Under the pieces are notes generated by a model. That model searched no databases. It was given only the letters and a program-made list of their open reading frames with translations, and had not been told where the DNA came from. Source: a virus. From it: 22,103 bases of DNA. Both the position numbers and the translations under genes were made by a program. Positions 1,499-20,503 of the stretch are shown piece after piece (positions within the stretch are counted from its first letter, which is position 1; every line of letters starts with the position of its first letter). Location: the IMG/VR virus record IMGVR_UViG_3300042387_000020, positions 1 to 22,103 of that record; one strand, written 5' to 3'.

Positions 1499-1960
1499 TT
1501 ATAGGCCAAACAGCTCCTTCAATTCCGCCACGGTCAGTCCCGCAGCTTCCAGCTTCTGCTCAGTGGTGAGAGAAGGATCGGGTAAGGGTGGAGCAATCTC
1601 ACTCAAGAGATACTCGCGGAGTTCATCAGGATTGAAGCCATATCGTAAGAGTCGATCCCGAGTAGTGAGATTCTCATCGGAGAGTGTAGGTAGAACAGGG
1701 GGCGTATAAACACCCGGTTCTACAGGCTCCTCAACAAGTGGCTCAGGCGTAGGTACTTCAGAGATTGAGGGCTCAGGAAGTGCGATTAGGTTCCAAGAAT
1801 GGCCATCCCAGATGACGGTTTCTGAGGTCAGGGCAGATGGAGGTTGTTCCGTAGTTGCATGGGCAGGTACGAGGTAAACGCCAGGTTCAAGAGGCGACTC
1901 ATCAGCATCAGCCTCAGAAAGATACTCACCAGTAACAGGATGGTAATGGTAGATTTTCAT
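1499..1960 (-). CDS. Tail-fibre assembly/accessory-like protein, 153 aa
   Basis: The N-terminus, MKIYHYHPVTGEYLSEADAD followed by PGVYLVPAHATTEQPP, follows the pattern of phage tail-fibre assembly chaperones encoded directly downstream of fibre genes. VIWDGHSW (about 49-56) is the second part of that pattern. A Pro/Glu-rich linker (about 60-90) leads to two related C-terminal segments: LTTRDRLLRYGFNPDELREY and LTTEQKLEAAGLTVAELKEL. The gene begins three nt after the fibre stop. It probably helps fold or attach the fibre, or remains at its tip. The duplicated C-terminal helix-turn segments are not part of the usual chaperone pattern and may bind another virion protein. Confidence 0.78.
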   Translation of the reverse strand: MKIYHYHPVTGEYLSEADADESPLEPGVYLVPAHATTEQPPSALTSETVIWDGHSWNLIALPEPSISEVPTPEPLVEEPVEPGVYTPPVLPTLSDENLTTRDRLLRYGFNPDELREYLLSEIAPPLPDPSLTTEQKLEAAGLTVAELKELFGL

Positions 1961-1963
1961 AAG

Positions 1964-4402
1964 TCAGTATTTAATAACATACAGAAGGGCGATGTTGCGT
2001 GGACGAGCCTCGTTATCACCAGAAGCATTCACGGTAACGCCTGTGCCATTACCATAAATACCGATTCCAGTACCGCTGCCGTAGATACCAATTCCGGTTC
2101 CTGAAGCGTTGGTAGCAGCACCATATTCATTTCTATTAACTGACGTACTGCCGGTACCATTAACGGAAGTGTTTAAAGAGTTACTCCTCACGTAGCCGTG
2201 AGCGTGACCTGGATCCCAAACACCGTGAGCGTGACCAGGGTCTGCAACACCGTGAGCGTGTCCAGGATCAGAAACACCGTGGTTGTGACTGAGGTTGGTA
2301 CTGGCTTGGACTGAAGCAAATGCTCTCGAGTTATCAATACCTCTTGAATCATCCCAACCACGAATGAATTCTCCACGGAGGTCTGGTAGGTTGAATGTCG
2401 TAGACCCATTTCCTGCACCAAAGGTTGTACCGATAACAGCGAACAAGGCAGAATATGTAGTGCGACTAATCGCAGCACCGTTAGCTTTTAGATAGCCTAG
2501 AGGTGCAACATTGACGGCAAGTGTAAGGATAGAGCCAACGATATCAACGGGCGAGATGTTTCCTGTTACCGTAAGATTGCCAGCAACTGTGAGGTTGTTG
2601 TCGAATGTGGCAGCTCCCGTGACATCGAGTGTCCCTGGTACATCAAGATTGCTAGTCCATTCAACACCGGTGCCTGTGGCATCAGTTTGAAGTAGTTGAC
2701 GAGGGCTACCGTCAGCCAGTTTGCTAACAGCGATGCCCGCTGATTGACTAATGTCTGTGTTAGTAATAGAGCCCGTTGAAATCTCGGTAACACCACTACT
2801 ATTGATAGTAACGTCTCCAGTGACAGGGACTTCTGTTGGGACGTTATTAGAGTTACCAATGAGAATAGATCCTGCTGTGATACTGGCGAGCTTGTGATGG
2901 GCGATAGCGGCGCTGGCGCTGAGGTTAGCATCAGTAATGACGCCACTACTAATTGCAGTCTCTCCATCACTGTCTACAACTACATCACCAGAAAGAGGTG
3001 TAGCTGTCGGGACGCCAGCCACGTTCCCAATGAGTACAGAGCCAGGGGCGATTCCCTGAAGCTTGCTATGCTGAATAGCGGCATAAGTACCAATGTCACT
3101 GTCTGTGATTGCGCCATCGGCCAACATTGTACTAGTAATAGAACCTACATCACCAGTAGTAACAACGGTGCCGCTTACATTGGGGAGGAATAATGATCTA
3201 TCTGCCGTTGGATCAATTGCAGAGACCGTCGTCTCAAAACCATTAGAGGAAGCACCCTCAAAGACAAGGCTCGCAGCAGCGCCAATTTCTAGATTACCGG
3301 TAAGAGTTCCACCAGTTTGTTTAAGATACCGACTCTCAGCATTGTTTGCAAAGTAATTGAGCCAGTTCCAGGTTGCACCAGCAGTTGTGTAAGTAATTCT
3401 TACAGTAAGACCGGAATCACCGATAAACCCGGTCGGAAGACCAACAAGGGGTGTGAATGACTCAATGCCAGCAGAGTCACTTACCTCGATATAGGTGTTG
3501 TTTGCTGGGGCTACTGGAATAGCAGAGACGTTAGGTACAAGCGTATAGTTAATAGAACTTGATACAGCGGCAATGGCTTGGTCAGCCTTGCTATCAGCAC
3601 TATTAGCTGTTACGACGGCTCCATTGGCAACAGTTACTGCATTTGTGGCAGAAACGACTGCACTATCAGCTGAACTGACTGCAGCTGCAGAAGCAGAGCT
3701 GGCGGCGTTGGATGTAGCAACAGCGATGCTGGCAGAGTTCTGAGCAGAATTAGCTGTAGAAACAGCAGTAGAAGCACTTAGAGCGGCTGCATTTGAAGTA
3801 GATACAGCAGAAGAAGCACTAGAAGATGCAGCATTAGCGGTTGCTGTAGCAGCATTAGATGCAGACAGAGCTGTATTTGCAGTAGTGACTGCTGTAGCTG
3901 CATTAGTAGACGCTGTTGTAGCTGTTGTGGTAGCGGTATTTGCGATACTCACAGCGTCTGAAGCGTCAGCAGTAGCTAGATTAGCGGTTACGGTAGCTGC
4001 ATTTGCAATTGAAATGGCAGAGTTGGAAAGGCTAAGAGCGTTGCTGGCAACGGTGGCAGCAGAGTTGGCAGTAGCAGCTGAGGCTGCAGAGATATTATTG
4101 GCTTCTTGCGTTACATAGAGATTCTGAGTGAAGTTATCATTGAGATCCTGAGAACGGATTGCAGATCCAGGGAAGAAGGTAGACGAAAGAGCAGAGTCAT
4201 CCGTAGCACGAAAGATCTTAATGGCGACACCACTAGCCGGTGCCGTAGCAAACTGGACCGTAGTGGCGTTAGCGAGGGTGTATGCAGTTGTAACCGTGCC
4301 ATTCAAGGAAACCTTGATGTCGGACGGATCGAGATATGGAAAAGTGAAGGAATAGAGAACGGTTGAGCCGTTCCCTGTATATGTATTCTGAGTGGTTGCC
4401 AT
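1964..4402 (-). CDS. Tail fibre, gp17-like N-terminus with collar-type C-terminus
   Basis: Receptor-binding fibre. The N-terminal ~85 residues (TYTGNGSTVLYSFTFPYLDP; later RSQDLNDNFTQNLYVTQEA) match the T7 gp17 tail-attachment domain. Residues ~92-280 are a long Ala/Ser/Thr/Asn heptad-like stalk. Residues ~420-600 contain two full and one partial repeat of about 60 residues built on TDSDI/TDANL/TNTDIS ... HSKL/HHKL/VSKL ... GSVLIGN/GSILIGN. From about 615 there is a phage tail collar domain (VAPLGYLKANGAAISRTTYS; TFNLPDLRGEFIRGWDDSRG). A His-rich segment with repeated HAHGVxDPG and GTGIGIYGx units follows, ending NEARPRNIALLYVIKY. The HxH pattern resembles iron-binding tips of T4-type fibres. 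812 aa, against 553 for T7 gp17. Confidence 0.93.
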   Translation of the reverse strand: MATTQNTYTGNGSTVLYSFTFPYLDPSDIKVSLNGTVTTAYTLANATTVQFATAPASGVAIKIFRATDDSALSSTFFPGSAIRSQDLNDNFTQNLYVTQEANNISAASAATANSAATVASNALSLSNSAISIANAATVTANLATADASDAVSIANTATTTATTASTNAATAVTTANTALSASNAATATANAASSSASSAVSTSNAAALSASTAVSTANSAQNSASIAVATSNAASSASAAAVSSADSAVVSATNAVTVANGAVVTANSADSKADQAIAAVSSSINYTLVPNVSAIPVAPANNTYIEVSDSAGIESFTPLVGLPTGFIGDSGLTVRITYTTAGATWNWLNYFANNAESRYLKQTGGTLTGNLEIGAAASLVFEGASSNGFETTVSAIDPTADRSLFLPNVSGTVVTTGDVGSITSTMLADGAITDSDIGTYAAIQHSKLQGIAPGSVLIGNVAGVPTATPLSGDVVVDSDGETAISSGVITDANLSASAAIAHHKLASITAGSILIGNSNNVPTEVPVTGDVTINSSGVTEISTGSITNTDISQSAGIAVSKLADGSPRQLLQTDATGTGVEWTSNLDVPGTLDVTGAATFDNNLTVAGNLTVTGNISPVDIVGSILTLAVNVAPLGYLKANGAAISRTTYSALFAVIGTTFGAGNGSTTFNLPDLRGEFIRGWDDSRGIDNSRAFASVQASTNLSHNHGVSDPGHAHGVADPGHAHGVWDPGHAHGYVRSNSLNTSVNGTGSTSVNRNEYGAATNASGTGIGIYGSGTGIGIYGNGTGVTVNASGDNEARPRNIALLYVIKY
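2043..2102 (-). repeat. 27-bp tandem repeat encoding GIGIYG units
   Basis: Two 27-bp units (from 2043 and 2070) plus a partial third (2097) encode repeats of about nine residues built on GTGIGIYG near the fibre C-terminus. They follow the HAHG repeats and have the same period, consistent with a beta-structured fibre tip. Confidence 0.75.
2196..2289 (-). repeat. 27-bp tandem repeat encoding HAHGVxDPG
   Basis: Three complete 27-bp units begin at 2196, 2223 and 2250, with a partial fourth at 2277. They encode His-Ala-His-Gly-Val-x-Asp-Pro-Gly in the C-terminal tip of the tail fibre. Unit ends differ by a few bases. HxH groups of this kind bind metal in T4-type fibre tips. Confidence 0.85.
3540..4130 (-). 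repeat. Low-complexity coding region for the fibre stalk
   Basis: Within the tail fibre gene this stretch encodes tandem Ala/Ser/Thr/Asn units of about seven residues (for example ATVTANLATADASDA). GCA/GCT/AGC/ACT-type codons recur throughout. Similar stalks form trimeric coiled coils. Unequal recombination here could change fibre length. Confidence 0.75.
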
Positions 4403-15793: not shown

Positions 15794-16810
15794 TCAGGAA
15801 CGAGCGGACTGCAGCTCGATAGCAGCAGCGGGGTTCAGGGTGCCGCAACCCATGGCCAGACGGCCCAGGATCACATCGCCCTGATACAGCACAGACACAT
15901 CACCAGAGGTGGTCTGCACTTGAGGACCGATGGCCTCCACAACACCAGCAGCATCCTTCTGATAGATGAGGCCGCAGTGGGTGGAGAAGTCACCGGAGTA
16001 GTTGTTGTTCTCACCAGTCACAGCAGCCACGTTACCGGCCAGGAACGGCAGGTTGTTGCTGCGCTTGATGGTGATACCAGCGATTTCATACAGACCTTCG
16101 CCGCTGTTCAGGTTACCTTGGGAGGCACCATAGTCACGGTTGAGGATGTTGGAATCAACCTGGCTGATCAGTGCGTAGTACTGACGGGGAGACAGCACAG
16201 CGTGACGGCCAGACTTGGGCACGTTCTTCTCATCAAGAATGGAGGCAGCTTCAAAGAAGGCGTCCACCAGAGCTTGAGCATCGAACTCTTTGTTGGCACC
16301 AAGTTGGATGATCGAACCACCAGGCTCAGGACCGGGAGCAGCAGTGATGGGGTGAGCCTCGCGTGCAGCTTTGGCGATCATACGGAAGATCTTTTTGTCA
16401 TAAGCCTCAGCGAGGGCATGACCGATCTTCTTGGAGATCTCGCCGCGCAGCGAGTAGTGAGCGAGAGTCTCGTCCAGGTCATACACAAAGGCAGAGCTGA
16501 CGAGCAGGTCGTCACAGACGATGGTCTTCTCGGCCACCGGGGGATCACCACTACCCAGAATAGGAGTACCAGGGGTGTGGTAACCAGCGGTCATACGACC
16601 GGTGAAGATGAACTGCAGGGACTTGCCGTTCTTCAGAGTACGACGCTGCACGGTATCACGTGCAATCGTGGCGGACTCATAAGCTTTGAACAGCTCACCG
16701 CTGAACAGTTTCAGATATGTAGCGTACTTAGTGTCGTACGCATTGGTTCCTGCGGTACTGGATACAGCTTTGTTAAGAGTACCGAGTACGGATTGTACGG
16801 CGTTAGCCAT
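15794..16810 (-). CDS. Major capsid protein, gp10-like
   Basis: The 338-aa shell protein of the icosahedral head (HK97 fold in this family). Recognisable cyanopodovirus segments are TKYATYLKLFSGELFKAYE (28-46), TLKNGKSLQFIFTGRMTAGY, HTPGTPILGSGDPPVAEKTI, VYDLDETLAHYSLRGEISKK and the C-terminal SGDVSVLYQGDVILGRLAMG. These match, from memory, the P-SSP7-type capsid protein rather than coliphage T7 itself. The gene has its own long leader, follows an apparent promoter region, and is followed by a small gene and a strong terminator, an arrangement like T7 gene 10. Its codons are noticeably richer in G/C at third positions than those of neighbouring genes, as expected for very high expression. A long plus-strand reading frame across it is a by-product of that composition. 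Confidence 0.97.
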   Translation of the reverse strand: MANAVQSVLGTLNKAVSSTAGTNAYDTKYATYLKLFSGELFKAYESATIARDTVQRRTLKNGKSLQFIFTGRMTAGYHTPGTPILGSGDPPVAEKTIVCDDLLVSSAFVYDLDETLAHYSLRGEISKKIGHALAEAYDKKIFRMIAKAAREAHPITAAPGPEPGGSIIQLGANKEFDAQALVDAFFEAASILDEKNVPKSGRHAVLSPRQYYALISQVDSNILNRDYGASQGNLNSGEGLYEIAGITIKRSNNLPFLAGNVAAVTGENNNYSGDFSTHCGLIYQKDAAGVVEAIGPQVQTTSGDVSVLYQGDVILGRLAMGCGTLNPAAAIELQSARS

Positions 16811-16842
16811 TGTTAGAAAAGAGAGAGAAGTTAATAATTCTC

Positions 16843-16856
16843 CCTAACCGGTTAGG
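16843..16856. repeat. 14-bp perfect palindrome in the capsid-gene leader
   Basis: CCTAACCGGTTAGG is a perfect 14-bp palindrome, flanked by AATT on both sides with a 3-nt offset. In RNA it could form a 5-bp stem with a CCGG tetraloop 33 nt before the capsid ATG. On the transcribed strand it continues as TTAGGGAGA, resembling the TATAGGGAGA initiation end of T7 promoters. It could be an mRNA-stabilising or processing hairpin, or an operator-like site. Confidence 0.65.
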
Positions 16857-16942
16857 AATTCACAAGACGCGATGTCATGTGCATTCAAGTGTTTTTGTGT
16901 TTGTCTGTCTCTCCAGACTGTCAATGACTAAAGGGTATCCGC

Positions 16943-16963
16943 CTTGGCGGGCCAATAGCCAAG
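16943..16963. repeat. Inverted repeat CTTGGC/GCCAAG
   Basis: A perfect 6-bp inverted repeat with a 9-nt loop. Its left arm also lies within the near-palindrome CCGCCTTGGCGG (16940-16951), so two alternative hairpins compete. No U-run follows on the transcribed strand. It sits between the two candidate promoter elements. Confidence 0.6.
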
Positions 16964-16996
16964 AGAAAGGGGGTCCGACACTGAGGTGCCCCCAAT
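16946..16996 (-). promoter_or_regulatory. Candidate phage RNA polymerase promoter elements
   Basis: Two ATTGG-type elements lie here on the transcribed strand: ATTGGGGGCACC (16996 to 16985) and ATTGGCCCGCC (16956 to 16946). They partly resemble the promoter reported for cyanophage Syn5 RNA polymerase as I recall it (ATTGGGCACCCGTAA): the first shares ATTGGG and CACC but with two extra Gs and a different 3' part. Placement just upstream of the capsid gene fits a phage late promoter. The match is imperfect, so this is only a candidate. Confidence 0.3.
16961..16993 (-). terminator. Weak terminator-like hairpin after the fibre-accessory gene
   Basis: On the transcribed strand GGGGG (16993-16989) pairs with CCCCC (16973-16969), with two more CC/GG pairs inside across a small internal loop. 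TTTCTCTT follows directly. The stem is short and the U-run is interrupted, so it would be a weak terminator at best; it could equally be a structured element associated with the promoter. Confidence 0.35.
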
Positions 16997-17000
16997 CCAG

Positions 17001-17222
17001 TTATTGATTTGACAGAAGAGCTAATAGTACTTCCTTCTGTTCAGAGGTTAATGCCGCCAACGGATCAGCATCAGGTTCCTGTTGAGATTCACTGAAAATT
17101 GGATGCTGGCTATCAGGATCAGCAATAGCTGTACACCCGTCTGGTGGTTGCCAGTCAGTTTCACCATCCCAAAGAACACGGTTAATGCACTGACCTTCAG
17201 AATTAAGAATTGCGTATTGCAT
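17001..17222 (-). CDS. Small fibre-accessory-like protein, 73 aa
   Basis: The N-terminal part (MQYAILNSEGQCINRVLWDG, then WQPPDGCTAIAD) follows a pattern common in small phage proteins encoded beside fibre genes: a beta strand, a 'WDG' turn and a 'PPxGxxAI' segment. The C-terminal helix (LTSEQKEVLLALLSNQ) resembles the end of the 153-aa protein that follows the tail fibre at 1499-1960. I chose ATG at 17222, two nt after the stop of the glycine-rich gene; an upstream in-frame TTG at 17231 would overlap that gene and is less likely. A role in folding or attaching the glycine-rich fibre is inferred from position and this resemblance; no activity can be read from the sequence. Confidence 0.7.
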   Translation of the reverse strand: MQYAILNSEGQCINRVLWDGETDWQPPDGCTAIADPDSQHPIFSESQQEPDADPLAALTSEQKEVLLALLSNQ

Positions 17223-17224
17223 GG

Positions 17225-18373
17225 TCACCAAGCCCAGATACGAACAACGCCAGAACCTCCGTTGCCACCAGCGCCGGAGTTGAAGCCATTGGTGCTGGCC
17301 GCACCGCCACCGCCACCGCCACCAGGGAAGGCGCCAGCGCCACCACTACCTGAAGCAGCAGTAGTGGAGGCAGCGCCGCTACCACCACCATCGCCATAGG
17401 TTGGGCCATTGCCACCACTACCACCGGTTAAACCACCACTACCACCGCCGCCAATACCGGATGCATTAAAGGCGCTGTTTTTCTGCTCAGCGAAACCTTG
17501 ACCACCAGTGCCGCCGGCATTAGCCACATTGCTTGTGCTAATACCGCCACCACCTGCCCCGCCTCCTGGACCTAGTGACGCTCTATTCCCAGAACCTCCA
17601 AGGCCTCCAGATGAACCACCAGATCCACCAGCAGCAGCAAATAACCCACTGATTGAGTTGCCGTAGTAAGAAATTATTCCTCCAGGGCCAGTGGTTGATG
17701 CGCCACCGCTACCACCCTTTGCTGCTGGCACAATTAACAAACTACCGAATGATGATGATCCACCATTGATACCGGTGACTCCATCTGTGTTATCAGTAGT
17801 TACTGCAGAACCGCCAGCACCACCTGCACCAACGGTTACGGTTTCAGTGCTACCGGCAGCTGATGCGACAATCATGCGGCTGACAAACTTCCCACTTGCT
17901 CCACCACCACCGCCAGTTCGTGCGGTAGACGGGGCACCACGCCGACCAGAAGCACCACCACCACCGCCAGCAACAACCTCGATGTAAAGTATGGTCACAC
18001 CCGCAGGCTTCGTCCAGGTGCCACTGCTGGTGAACTCTTGGTAGTTTGCAGCACTACTTCCGCCACCACCACCACCACCAGTTGCAGACAATGTCCCACT
18101 TGTCAGGGAAAGGCCAGAGCCAACGCTGATCTCCTCAGCCACACCCGTGCCAGCTGTCGAGCGGCCCAGCAGCTTCCCGGTGCCCATGCTGGTGCTGACG
18201 GTTTGCGTGCCGCTGTCGTAGGCGATCGGAGCTGTGGCAGCGACCACGCCAGCAGGTCCCTGCGGGCCGGTGGCACCCGTTGCACCCGTTGCACCAGTCG
18301 GCCCAGCAGGTCCTGTTGTGCCAGCTCCAACTTCATCAAAACTATTAGTAAATGGATTAAGTCTATACGGCAT
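17225..18373 (-). CDS. Collagen/glycine-rich fibre-like protein (candidate adhesin)
   Basis: The 382-aa protein has, in order: an N-terminal motif MPYRLNPFTNSFDEV shared with the upstream collagen-like protein; a short Gly-X-Y run (GPAGPTGATGATGATGPQG, about 21-39); a linker (KLLGRSTAGTGVAEEISVGS, near 70-90) typical of phage fibres; a seven-Gly hinge; and a domain starting EFTSSGTWTKPAGV followed by VEVVAGGGGGA. This last pattern belongs to the glycine-rich phage tail domains whose Gly-rich stretches can pack as polyglycine-II helices, as in the S16 gp38 adhesin tip. From about residue 105 to the end the protein is dominated by GG and GGGG runs and finishes VVRIWAW. Five nt separate it from the collagen gene. 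The linker region is much richer in GC than its surroundings. A receptor-binding or surface-fibre role is inferred. Confidence 0.85.
   Translation of the reverse strand: MPYRLNPFTNSFDEVGAGTTGPAGPTGATGATGATGPQGPAGVVAATAPIAYDSGTQTVSTSMGTGKLLGRSTAGTGVAEEISVGSGLSLTSGTLSATGGGGGGGSSAANYQEFTSSGTWTKPAGVTILYIEVVAGGGGGASGRRGAPSTARTGGGGGASGKFVSRMIVASAAGSTETVTVGAGGAGGSAVTTDNTDGVTGINGGSSSFGSLLIVPAAKGGSGGASTTGPGGIISYYGNSISGLFAAAGGSGGSSGGLGGSGNRASLGPGGGAGGGGISTSNVANAGGTGGQGFAEQKNSAFNASGIGGGGSGGLTGGSGGNGPTYGDGGGSGAASTTAASGSGGAGAFPGGGGGGGAASTNGFNSGAGGNGGSGVVRIWAW
18057..18082 (-). repeat. CCA/CCG triplet run encoding poly-glycine
   Basis: On the plus strand this is a run of CCG and CCA triplets, specifying seven consecutive Gly residues between the linker and the glycine-rich domain. 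Similar shorter runs recur near 17303-17325, 17899-17912 and 17957-17972. Slippage in such runs would change length in multiples of three and keep the frame. Confidence 0.75.
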
Positions 18374-18378
18374 GATAT

Positions 18379-18936
18379 TTAGTTATGTTGAACAGTAATA
18401 CCACCGGCTACCCAACCACGTTGCTGAGGCGATGAATCACCTGTGTACTGAACTCTGCCTGGAGGGCCTGGAGGACCAGATACGCCTGGCTTACCTTGTG
18501 GTCCTTGTGGCCCTGGAGGACCCATGGGACCGCGATCTCCACAAGGACCACGCTCACCATCCAGACCATGACTACCATTCACACCGGGCTGTCCTTGTGG
18601 TCCAATCAGAGAGACCCCTTGTGGCCAACCGTTAGCGGACTTAGGTCCGTAGATTAACCAACTCTGGTGGTTGATATAGAATTGACCAATCTCTCCCATG
18701 AATGGAGAAGGAGGGTTGGTACCACTAAGAATACCAAGCCCATCCTTTCCATTTACTCCCGGTGAGCCAGTCTCACCTTTAGGTCCTACAGGCCCCTGCG
18801 GTCCTGCCTCTCCTCGTACACCTTGTTCACCATCAAGACCAGGTTCACCGGGTTCACCGGGTTCACCTGGAGGTCCAGGCGGTGCGTACTCAGGTACAAA
18901 TGATAAGGAGCCTGTAATAGGATTTAGTCTAAACAT
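18379..18936 (-). CDS. Collagen-like repeat protein (candidate head or tail fibre)
   Basis: The 185-aa protein has two runs of Gly-X-Y triplets, at about 20-68 ([20 protein letters not shown] onward) and 113-161, which would form a collagen-type triple helix. Between them lies a short folded module ([20 protein letters not shown]) of a kind seen in other collagen-like phage and bacterial proteins. The N-terminus, [14 protein letters not shown], resembles that of the next gene and may be an attachment peptide. The C-terminus ([14 protein letters not shown]) is non-collagenous and could serve as trimerisation tip. One Cys lies inside the second triplet run (GPCGDRG). The start overlaps the preceding stop (TAATG). 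A surface fibre or decoration protein is the best reading; collagen-like head fibres adjacent to capsid genes are known in phi29 (gp8.5). Confidence 0.85.
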
Positions 18937-19151
18937 TACGAGATACGGATCACGCTGACTAGATAACCGTTAGCGTCGTAGGTCATATTGACGGTTGATA
19001 CAATCTGACCACTTGCGCCACCCGCTCTGTAAACGACAGTAGTTGGGTTTCCATTAGCATCGTTGGTGATGCTGATGTAGTCGTGTTCGGGTACGCTTAG
19101 ACCCGTCTCCATCTGTCGGCTTGAGTACCGACCTGTTGCAATGTTAGCCAT
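18936..19151 (-). CDS. Hypothetical 71-aa small virion-type protein
   Basis: The protein has a beta-rich pattern: DYISITND at 24-31, TTVVYRAGG at 37-45, then [19 protein letters not shown]. This looks like a short antiparallel sheet of the TYDxNGxLxSV kind common in small phage structural proteins, but I cannot name a family. It begins 21 nt after the stop of the 64-aa gene, and its stop overlaps the start of the collagen-like gene as TAATG, so the two are probably translationally coupled. That coupling suggests the product works with, or in the same structure as, the collagen-like protein. No ribosome-binding site is evident. Confidence 0.72.
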
Positions 19152-19172
19152 TTAGTTTGTGATGTCAGTTAA

Positions 19173-19367
19173 TCAGGCCCAAGCACCTGCATACGGGGCA
19201 ACATCATCCAAGGTTCCAGGTTCACATGTTGCACCCTTTGGGCTCAATTCAGTGAGGGTGGTTCCAGCATAGGGGTAGATGAATGCACCAGATGTGCTGG
19301 TAGGTGCACAGTATTGAACCTTCGCTACCGAAGAGTTCTTTGGATCAAACGGGTTTGCTCGTGCCAT
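19173..19367 (-). CDS. Hypothetical 64-aa protein
   Basis: I do not recognise this protein. It starts one base after the stop of the RlpA-like gene, which supports it as a real, co-translated gene. It opens with MARANPFDPKNSSVAKV, has two cysteines (CAP at about 20 and TCEP at about 48), several Pro/Gly turns and an Ala/Trp C-terminus (YAGAWA). There is no membrane segment or coiled coil. The composition (Ser, Thr, Gly, Ala, Pro with few charges) resembles small virion structural proteins. Its position in the scaffold-capsid interval with fibre-like genes suggests a structural or accessory role, which is inference only. Confidence 0.72.
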   Translation of the reverse strand: MARANPFDPKNSSVAKVQYCAPTSTSGAFIYPYAGTTLTELSPKGATCEPGTLDDVAPYAGAWA

Positions 19368-19368
19368 T

Positions 19369-19674
19369 CTATTTAATGGGTGTGATGGTTACTTGACCTA
19401 CACCTACACTCCTCAAGCCAATCGCATCAGCTGCTGCCCTACTCAAATCAATATCACGACCATGAACAAAAGGTCCACGATCATTAATAGTGACATTGGT
19501 ACACCTCTTGGTTGAGGTGCTACACACTCGGACTTTGGTTCCAAATGGGAGTGTGCGGTGAGCAGCTGTGTGTGCATTCATGTTGTAGATCTCACCGGAG
19601 GCGGTGCGTCTACCGTGATATGGAATGCCATACCACGAAGCGAGAGAAGCAAGTGTAAGTGTCAGAGTTAGCAT
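19369..19674 (-). CDS. RlpA-like double-psi beta-barrel protein (putative lytic transglycosylase)
   Basis: RlpA-family domains cleave glycan strands of peptidoglycan, classically those lacking stem peptides. The 101-aa protein is almost entirely this domain. It opens with ASWYG (12-16) and continues with RTASGE (23-28), AAHRTLPFGTKVRV (37-50), NDRGPFVHGRDIDLSRAAA (64-82) and a final G-x-G-x-V strand. Residues corresponding to the active-site positions described for bacterial RlpA are present: E28, H39 and D65. Two cysteines (C51, C58) flank a short loop. The first 12 residues (MLTLTLTLASLA) are hydrophobic but lack the charged n-region of a signal peptide and the SPOR domain of cellular RlpA is absent. 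An in-frame TGA just upstream fixes the start. Lying between scaffold and capsid genes, it may be a virion-borne entry enzyme or an extra lysis enzyme. Confidence 0.88.
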   Translation of the reverse strand: MLTLTLTLASLASWYGIPYHGRRTASGEIYNMNAHTAAHRTLPFGTKVRVCSTSTKRCTNVTINDRGPFVHGRDIDLSRAAADAIGLRSVGVGQVTITPIK

Positions 19675-19726
19675 TAGTTCATTGCAAAGGACTTTTATAT
19701 TGCTTACTCTTCCAAAACTGCCAATA
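19675..19726 (-). other. Intergenic gap after scaffold gene, possible weak promoter
   Basis: This 52-nt gap is the largest break between the scaffold and RlpA-like genes. In the transcribed direction it contains TTGGCA and an AT-rich ATATAAAAG about 18 nt further on, which loosely resembles a bacterial -35/-10 pair. There is no hairpin with a U-run. A TGA in frame three bases upstream of the RlpA-like ATG fixes that gene's start. Confidence 0.2.
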
Positions 19727-20503
19727 CTAGTAGCTCAGATTTGAACGTTCTAGTTTGTCGTATACATCCTGCCGGTAGGCCGGATCGTTTTCATAGCGAG
19801 GATCACTCATTGCACGGACAACCTCTGCCTGACTGCGGAATGCATCCACAGTTCGTGCAGCGTTGCCGGTCAACAGCTGACCGTCATACCCAACGGAATC
19901 ATTGAATCGGTAGCTCAGAGCCTGAATCGCAAAGTAAATAGCTTGAGGGTCACCACGATCCATGACCTGGTCATAGACCTGAATCTCCTCAGGTGAAAGG
20001 TTCTGAGCAGCCCATGCCATCATGTTGTTGTACTGCTGTTCACCACCAGCAACACCCTTAAGTTCACTGACATCAGTCTCATCCAGAGCGTAGCTCTCGA
20101 CTTGAGGTTCAGCGTTCTGTCGGTAGCTGAGGAACATATCAGCAATATCAGATGCTGACATCCCCTCCAGAGCTTGCAGGGTTTCATCAGAGAACTGACC
20201 AGAGTCAGCCTCCTCAGCAAGACGATTAAGGAAAGAGTAGTCTCCCTCCTCGATCACCTCTTCTTCCTGTTCTGCTACTTCAGGTTCCTCGTCTTCGGGT
20301 TCCTGTCCTCGTTGACTGAACCTCGATTGAAGTTCAAGGTAAGCACGTTCCAGCTCTTCAGCGTCACGATACTTACCAGCCAACAGGGCTTCTTGTTCTT
20401 GTGCTAGACGTTCACCAATCTCCAGACTTTCAGAGTCACGAGCCTCAGCCTCTTCAAGAGCTGCCGGATCGTCGGAGGGGTCATACGTCAGGTTGAATGC
20501 CAT
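19727..20503 (-). CDS. Capsid assembly scaffolding protein, gp9-like
   Basis: Internal scaffold that directs assembly of the procapsid and leaves before or during packaging. The 258-aa product is strongly acidic, with a Glu-rich block at about residues 66-88 (EPEDEEPEVAEQEEEVIEE), typical of T7-family scaffolds. The N-terminal half is predicted to be helical (ELERAYLELQSRF). The C-terminal section carries the FRSQAEVVRAMSDPRY pattern seen in cyanopodovirus scaffolds and ends in a basic/polar helix (QDVYDKLERSN), where capsid-binding helices usually lie. It follows the portal gene directly, as in T7. The usual next gene, the capsid protein, is instead about 2.9 kb away. The start at MAFNLTYDPSDDP is the only ATG in a suitable position; no strong ribosome-binding site is visible. 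Confidence 0.9.
   Translation of the reverse strand: MAFNLTYDPSDDPAALEEAEARDSESLEIGERLAQEQEALLAGKYRDAEELERAYLELQSRFSQRGQEPEDEEPEVAEQEEEVIEEGDYSFLNRLAEEADSGQFSDETLQALEGMSASDIADMFLSYRQNAEPQVESYALDETDVSELKGVAGGEQQYNNMMAWAAQNLSPEEIQVYDQVMDRGDPQAIYFAIQALSYRFNDSVGYDGQLLTGNAARTVDAFRSQAEVVRAMSDPRYENDPAYRQDVYDKLERSNLSY

Follow-up and report, generated by a model that had tools for sequence, protein, structure and literature searches.

The stretch of viral DNA analysed here (G000, an IMG/VR record of 22,103 bases, hereafter the window) is a piece of a T7-like cyanophage genome, and its major capsid protein (15794–16810, minus strand) is 81–89% identical to those of the T7-like cyanophages S-CBP1, S-CBP3, NATL1A-7, DSL-LC07, S-SRP01, and S-CBP4. 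Two fibre-like genes, both on the minus strand, sit in the interval between the scaffold gene and the capsid gene. The gene at 18379–18936 encodes a collagen-like fibre protein of 185 aa, which matches PF01391 with 70.7 bits (cut-off 27.2) and has an orthologue in S-SRP01. It opens with a tag peptide (18895–18936), for which modelling of a homologous tag predicts a β-hairpin with the turn NPITG, and carries Gly-X-Y runs of 16 triplets at residues 21–68 (18733–18876) and 17 triplets at residues 112–162 (18451–18603). After 5 nt follows the gene of a glycine-rich fibre-like protein of 382 aa (17225–18373). Its start, MPYRLNPFTNSFDEV (18329–18373), also matches the motif, and behind it lie nine Gly-X-Y triplets at residues 18–44 (18242–18322) and then the Pfam domain Gly_rich_2 (PF21722, 29.2 bits, cut-off 24.3). 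With PF01391 or PF21722 above the cut-off, the window proteins fall into the collagen-like/Gly-rich class of phage fibres. The initial annotation had described both proteins at 17225–18936, the shared N-terminal motif, and the Gly-X-Y repeats behind it, all of which we found as stated. Directly upstream of the collagen-like gene and on the same strand lies a gene for a 71-aa protein (18936–19151), termed the hub here, whose C-terminal domain is YD-repeat-like, includes the residues VYRAGG, and matches phrog_26903 (E = 2.2e-12), a family without functional annotation. The stop codon TAA of the hub and the start codon ATG of the collagen-like gene overlap in the sequence TAATG.

The scaffold–capsid interval (16810–19727) is a variable accessory site. 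In five close relatives it holds other genes in place of the fibre cassette, with psbA in 5/5 and hli annotated in most, and the freshwater phage S-SRP01 is the only one of these relatives with the hub and a collagen-like protein; the cassette is therefore accessory in this lineage. The collagen-like orthologue of S-SRP01 has the same first residues as the window protein, while the gene that comes after it is unrelated and untagged. Another gene of the interval (19369–19674, minus strand) encodes a small protein; its counterpart in S-SRP01 carries the annotation RlpA-family lytic transglycosylase, and the corresponding interval of DSL-LC07 includes a ‘rare lipoprotein A’ gene. Next to the glycine-rich gene, a 76-aa protein (17001–17231, minus strand), YAILNSEGQCINRVLWDGETDWQPPDGC, carries a WDG...W.PP.GC motif. 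Such WDG-PP proteins were found downstream of the hub at 9 of 247 hub loci and at none of 38 control loci, which weakly suggests that this is possibly an accessory gene of the fibre cassette, perhaps one for assembly.

The similarity between the two N-termini is marginal within the window. Among the N-termini of its 19 proteins, the best ungapped match was five identities over seven residues, and 130 of 2000 shuffles (about 6.5%) reached the same value, so the window by itself would not establish a shared motif. The database of viral contigs confirmed that the motif is real. There the tag has the consensus M-x-[YF]-K-[FL]-N-P-F-T-G-x-[LF]-D, which over 179 distinct copies reads [YF]-K-F-N-P-F-T-G-[NKT]-[LF]-D-x-V-G. 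Both window proteins fit [YF]x[FL]NPxT[GN]x[LF] no farther than about 10 residues from their N-terminus, slightly off consensus, with L for F before NP in both, I for F in one, and N for G in the other. When the unanchored pattern [L]NPFTGx[L]D, which contains no ATG, was scanned over the viral contigs, it gave at least 116 matches; these come from metagenomic contigs, some of them related to each other, so that the counts are not independent events. Among the matches listed, an ATG lay 3–6 codons upstream of the motif in 92 of 116 and exactly 4 codons upstream in 78 of 116. A control pattern with permuted codons had just 38 matches across the whole collection, and an ATG lay 3–6 codons upstream in 2 of them. 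In 50 whole virus records, picked for holding the motif or the hub, the motif pattern occurred 52 times and the reversed pattern not once. Third codon positions varied freely over 173 tag copies, indicating that the conservation lies in the peptide and not in the DNA. The consensus had no match among PDB sequences, and the literature covered, which excluded subscription journals and preprints (bioRxiv), contained no paper on NPFTG in this sense or on phrog_26903; the tag is widespread and apparently undescribed. In one contig (L272, 8195–8446; MW202613), an 84-aa ORF right after the hub carries three tandem copies of the motif (LNPVTGQLD, FNPFTGQLD, and LNPFGISLD), as if the hairpin could be repeated.

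Clustering of the ORFs around the motif loci put one family far ahead of all others, with proteins of about 70–86 aa at 155 loci among the matches listed, and the window gene at 18936–19151 belongs to it. A profile of this hub family hit 167 of the 192 motif loci among the matches listed and 0 of 38 control loci, as well as 48 of the 50 whole virus records; several of the seeming absences came down to short fragments or to weak hits. We also ran the reciprocal scan with a DNA pattern of the hub alone, leaving the motif unused. It found 77 viral contigs and, among genome contigs representing 84,980 species with one genome each, only two, from a Patescibacteria MAG and Rhodoblastus acidophilus. 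Of the 62 hub loci newly found in this way, 60 were followed by a gene that opens with the motif; the two exceptions were a variant, MAYVFNVLTGNLD, and a contig error, AYVFNPFLGGLDW, where the junction contains an N. Over all hub loci the fraction was 241/246, and the five exceptions comprised two motif variants, one contig error, one degenerate start that precedes a true motif gene, and one locus without any. Two hubs occur in record G034, each adjoining its own motif gene, and one record combines two hubs with four motif genes.

The conserved hub domain, about 50 aa long, forms the end of the upstream gene's product, and the ORF closed 45, 46, or 55 codons past the residues DYI in 61 of 62 loci. 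The part in front of it is variable, only a few residues long in some hubs and about 400 or more in others, with a median hub size of 86 aa; in two loci it matches phrog_1645, a ‘virion structural protein’ of the head and packaging category. Measured from the hub stop, the tagged gene started at −15 to +13 nt in 228 of 242 cases, which suggests coupled translation and matched amounts of the two proteins. These gaps occur in all three frames, and a joining of hub and fibre by frameshift or read-through was therefore rejected. Among the long hub ORFs we found no hub–fibre fusions; their extensions are N-terminal. The genes ahead of the hub include capsid, portal, head assembly, head–tail adaptor, internal virion, and tail-collar fibre families, showing that the cassette occurs in head and tail-fibre gene blocks alike.

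The bodies behind the tag were highly varied and included collagen-like, Gly-rich, β-helix, tailspike, and Mtd-like proteins. Thirty representatives with unrelated bodies had only the tag residues M, N, P, T, G, and D in common, and in 28 locus pairs the hub and the tag were near-identical while the bodies were unrelated. The expectation set out at the start, of one N-terminal peptide shared by fibres that are otherwise unrelated and of one partner gene occurring with them, is borne out. Family matches of the bodies are to tail fibre, tailspike, collagen-like minor tail, virion structural, head decoration, β-helix, and phage tail tip families. The bodies of S-CBS1 and S-CBS3 are annotated as major tropism determinants; a regular expression for Mtd-like C-termini returned several probable false positives, and by eye only those of S-CBS1, S-CBS3, and one contig (L110) were convincing. 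The cassette is present in the Autographiviridae S-SRP01, S-SRP02, S-B28, and S-RIP1, in S-CBS1 and S-CBS3, which have a tape-measure gene, in the isolated phage KBS-S-2A, and in a record named Myoviridae. In S-TIM5 the hub is followed by a degenerate start, MTAHFNFVSGKL, on a gene annotated as virion structural. In one viral contig (probably L292, from 1898 onward, minus strand), a reverse transcriptase gene (phrog_1423) lies near the tagged fibre gene, downstream of the cassette, and is possibly part of a diversity-generating retroelement.

AlphaFold predicted the hub of the window as a four-stranded sheet with a pLDDT of 94–97. For the tag, we modelled a read-through of the hub stop into the tag at loci where the two are in frame. 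The tag then formed a hairpin of strands V60–N63 and N68–L71 with PFTG at the turn, at a moderate pLDDT of 72–79 for the block, which fell to 53 and 38 behind it. In a Foldseek search of the PDB, all matches of the hub model were below significance; the leading ones were largely Rhs/teneurin sheets, of which the best Rhs matches had E values of 0.09–0.25. Likewise, the hub reached 18.1 bits against Pfam RHS_repeat (PF05593), below the 22-bit cut-off, and the S-SRP01 hub is named ‘YD repeat-containing protein’ in UniProt. The fold thus resembles the YD sheets of Rhs and teneurin proteins below significance, with only two hairpins in place of the long shell of those repeat proteins. The hub hairpins YTGSNLT and YDGSNNLT look like the tag sequence FNPFTGNLD. 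No covariation between hub and tag was detected (Spearman 0.03, a value reached by 50 of 200 permutations); a single fixed interface would fit this absence, yet the absence lends no support to binding.

The near-obligate adjacency makes the pair look like a plug and socket for fibre swapping in many aquatic phages, and we consider such a fibre anchor the probable function. The plug would be the β-hairpin of about 14 residues (strand, N-P-F-T-G turn, strand), which would fix a variable, swappable fibre onto the virion. The candidate socket is most likely the YD-repeat-like domain of about 50 aa encoded directly upstream (18936–19151). We infer both the binding of plug to socket and the location in the virion, and the variable N-terminal part of the hub may in turn bind the virion. 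A docking function had been suggested in the initial annotation and is supported in this sense; for the partner, capsid, portal, and nozzle proteins had been named, and the association points to the phrog_26903-type domain instead. We counted against the plug-and-socket reading that two tagged fibres share one hub in the window and that no virion proteomics for hub or tag came to light. A single hub may serve one or more tagged fibres, here both the collagen-like and the Gly-rich protein. It is conceivable, though we hold it only tentatively, that the tag and hub together are a general exchangeable connector of aquatic phages with different tail types, into which nearly any body, Mtd-type included, can be plugged; the tag would then be a YD-like hairpin that might complete the two-hairpin sheet of the hub by donor-hairpin complementation.

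There are three rival explanations. The hub might be a non-structural assembly factor, a chaperone that takes hold of the nascent fibre by its N-terminal hairpin, aids its trimerisation or protects it, and is absent from the finished virion, with the tag docking elsewhere. The small size of most hubs fits this, as do the strict adjacency and the coupling of both genes; however, it speaks against this that two loci have the hub domain fused to a virion-protein family of the head and packaging category, and the long variable N-terminal extensions are easier to explain by virion attachment. Known fibre chaperones also differ in gene order and target end, as their genes usually lie 3ʹ of the fibre gene and they act on the fibre C-terminus. 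We therefore regard a chaperone as rather unlikely. Less likely still is that the hairpins at the N-termini serve chiefly as an oligomerisation nucleus that caps the fibre trimer and sets its register, with the hub as a linked but separate structural protein and no specific docking partner. Many bodies do open with collagen-like Gly-X-Y repeats, which need a nucleus for trimerisation, but this leaves unexplained both the near-obligate hub neighbour and the same tag on β-helix, tailspike-like, and Mtd-like bodies. Chance or simple duplication, with an accidental match or one start copied from the other, is very improbable: the in-window match is just marginally unlikely under shuffling and local copying could explain the second tagged gene of this genome, where S-SRP01 has one, but many contigs keep the peptide beside the hub while third codon positions vary freely and the bodies differ, and the motif position, the reciprocal hub test, and the reversed-pattern count contradict it as a full explanation.

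The plug-and-socket reading has parallels in known systems. In phages SP6 of Salmonella, K1-5 and K1E of E. coli, and the KP34- and KP32-type Klebsiella phages, an N-terminal peptide of about 7–11 residues is found on differing receptor-binding proteins and has been proposed to bind a virion anchor protein (Latka et al. 2019, PMC6872550, with reference there to Leiman et al. 2007); the heptapeptide of KP34 group A is MALxxLV (PMC6872550). The window shares with the SP6, K1-5, and KP34 proteins a short conserved N-terminal peptide on divergent fibres, but the peptide here is an NPFTG hairpin and not of the MALxxLV type. Their partner is an anchor protein or the first receptor-binding protein, whereas the constant neighbour here, and the putative partner, is the phrog_26903 domain and not an anchor or T7-tail domain. 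Moreover, each of those peptides belongs to one phage group, while the NPFTG tag spans several lineages. The NPFTG system most likely works like these anchor peptides, with another peptide and another partner. As a practical rule, a gene that starts M-x-x-x-FNPFTG and comes after a small YD-like gene is a candidate for a fibre or receptor-binding protein, in many phage genomes where such products are now labelled ‘hypothetical protein’; the hub provides a named candidate for the docking partner and a hint of how unrelated phages may swap fibres.

The model of the hub also had a weak fold match to gp52 of phage Syn5 (E = 0.28, probability 1.00, rmsd 2.4 Å). The gp52 gene lies upstream of the gp53 ‘structural protein’ gene and overlaps it by one base (L337, 7639–9323), and gp53 and gp54 are described as horn proteins. 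Homology to the Syn5 horn was rejected, with a profile comparison probability of 2.5 and a gp53 that has no tag, and we keep the gp52–gp53 pair as a lead only. The T7 gp17-type anchor (PF03906) combines a fixed N-terminus with a variable C-terminus and attaches the fibre to the podovirus virion. It is a domain of about 150 aa and is present in the separate tail fibre of the window (1964–4402); Pfam gave no PF03906 match in the collagen-like and Gly-rich proteins. After this T7-type tail fibre comes a tail-fibre-assembly-like protein (1499–1960, minus strand), whose start, MKIYHYHPVTGEYLSEAD, is another PxTG hairpin-like start.
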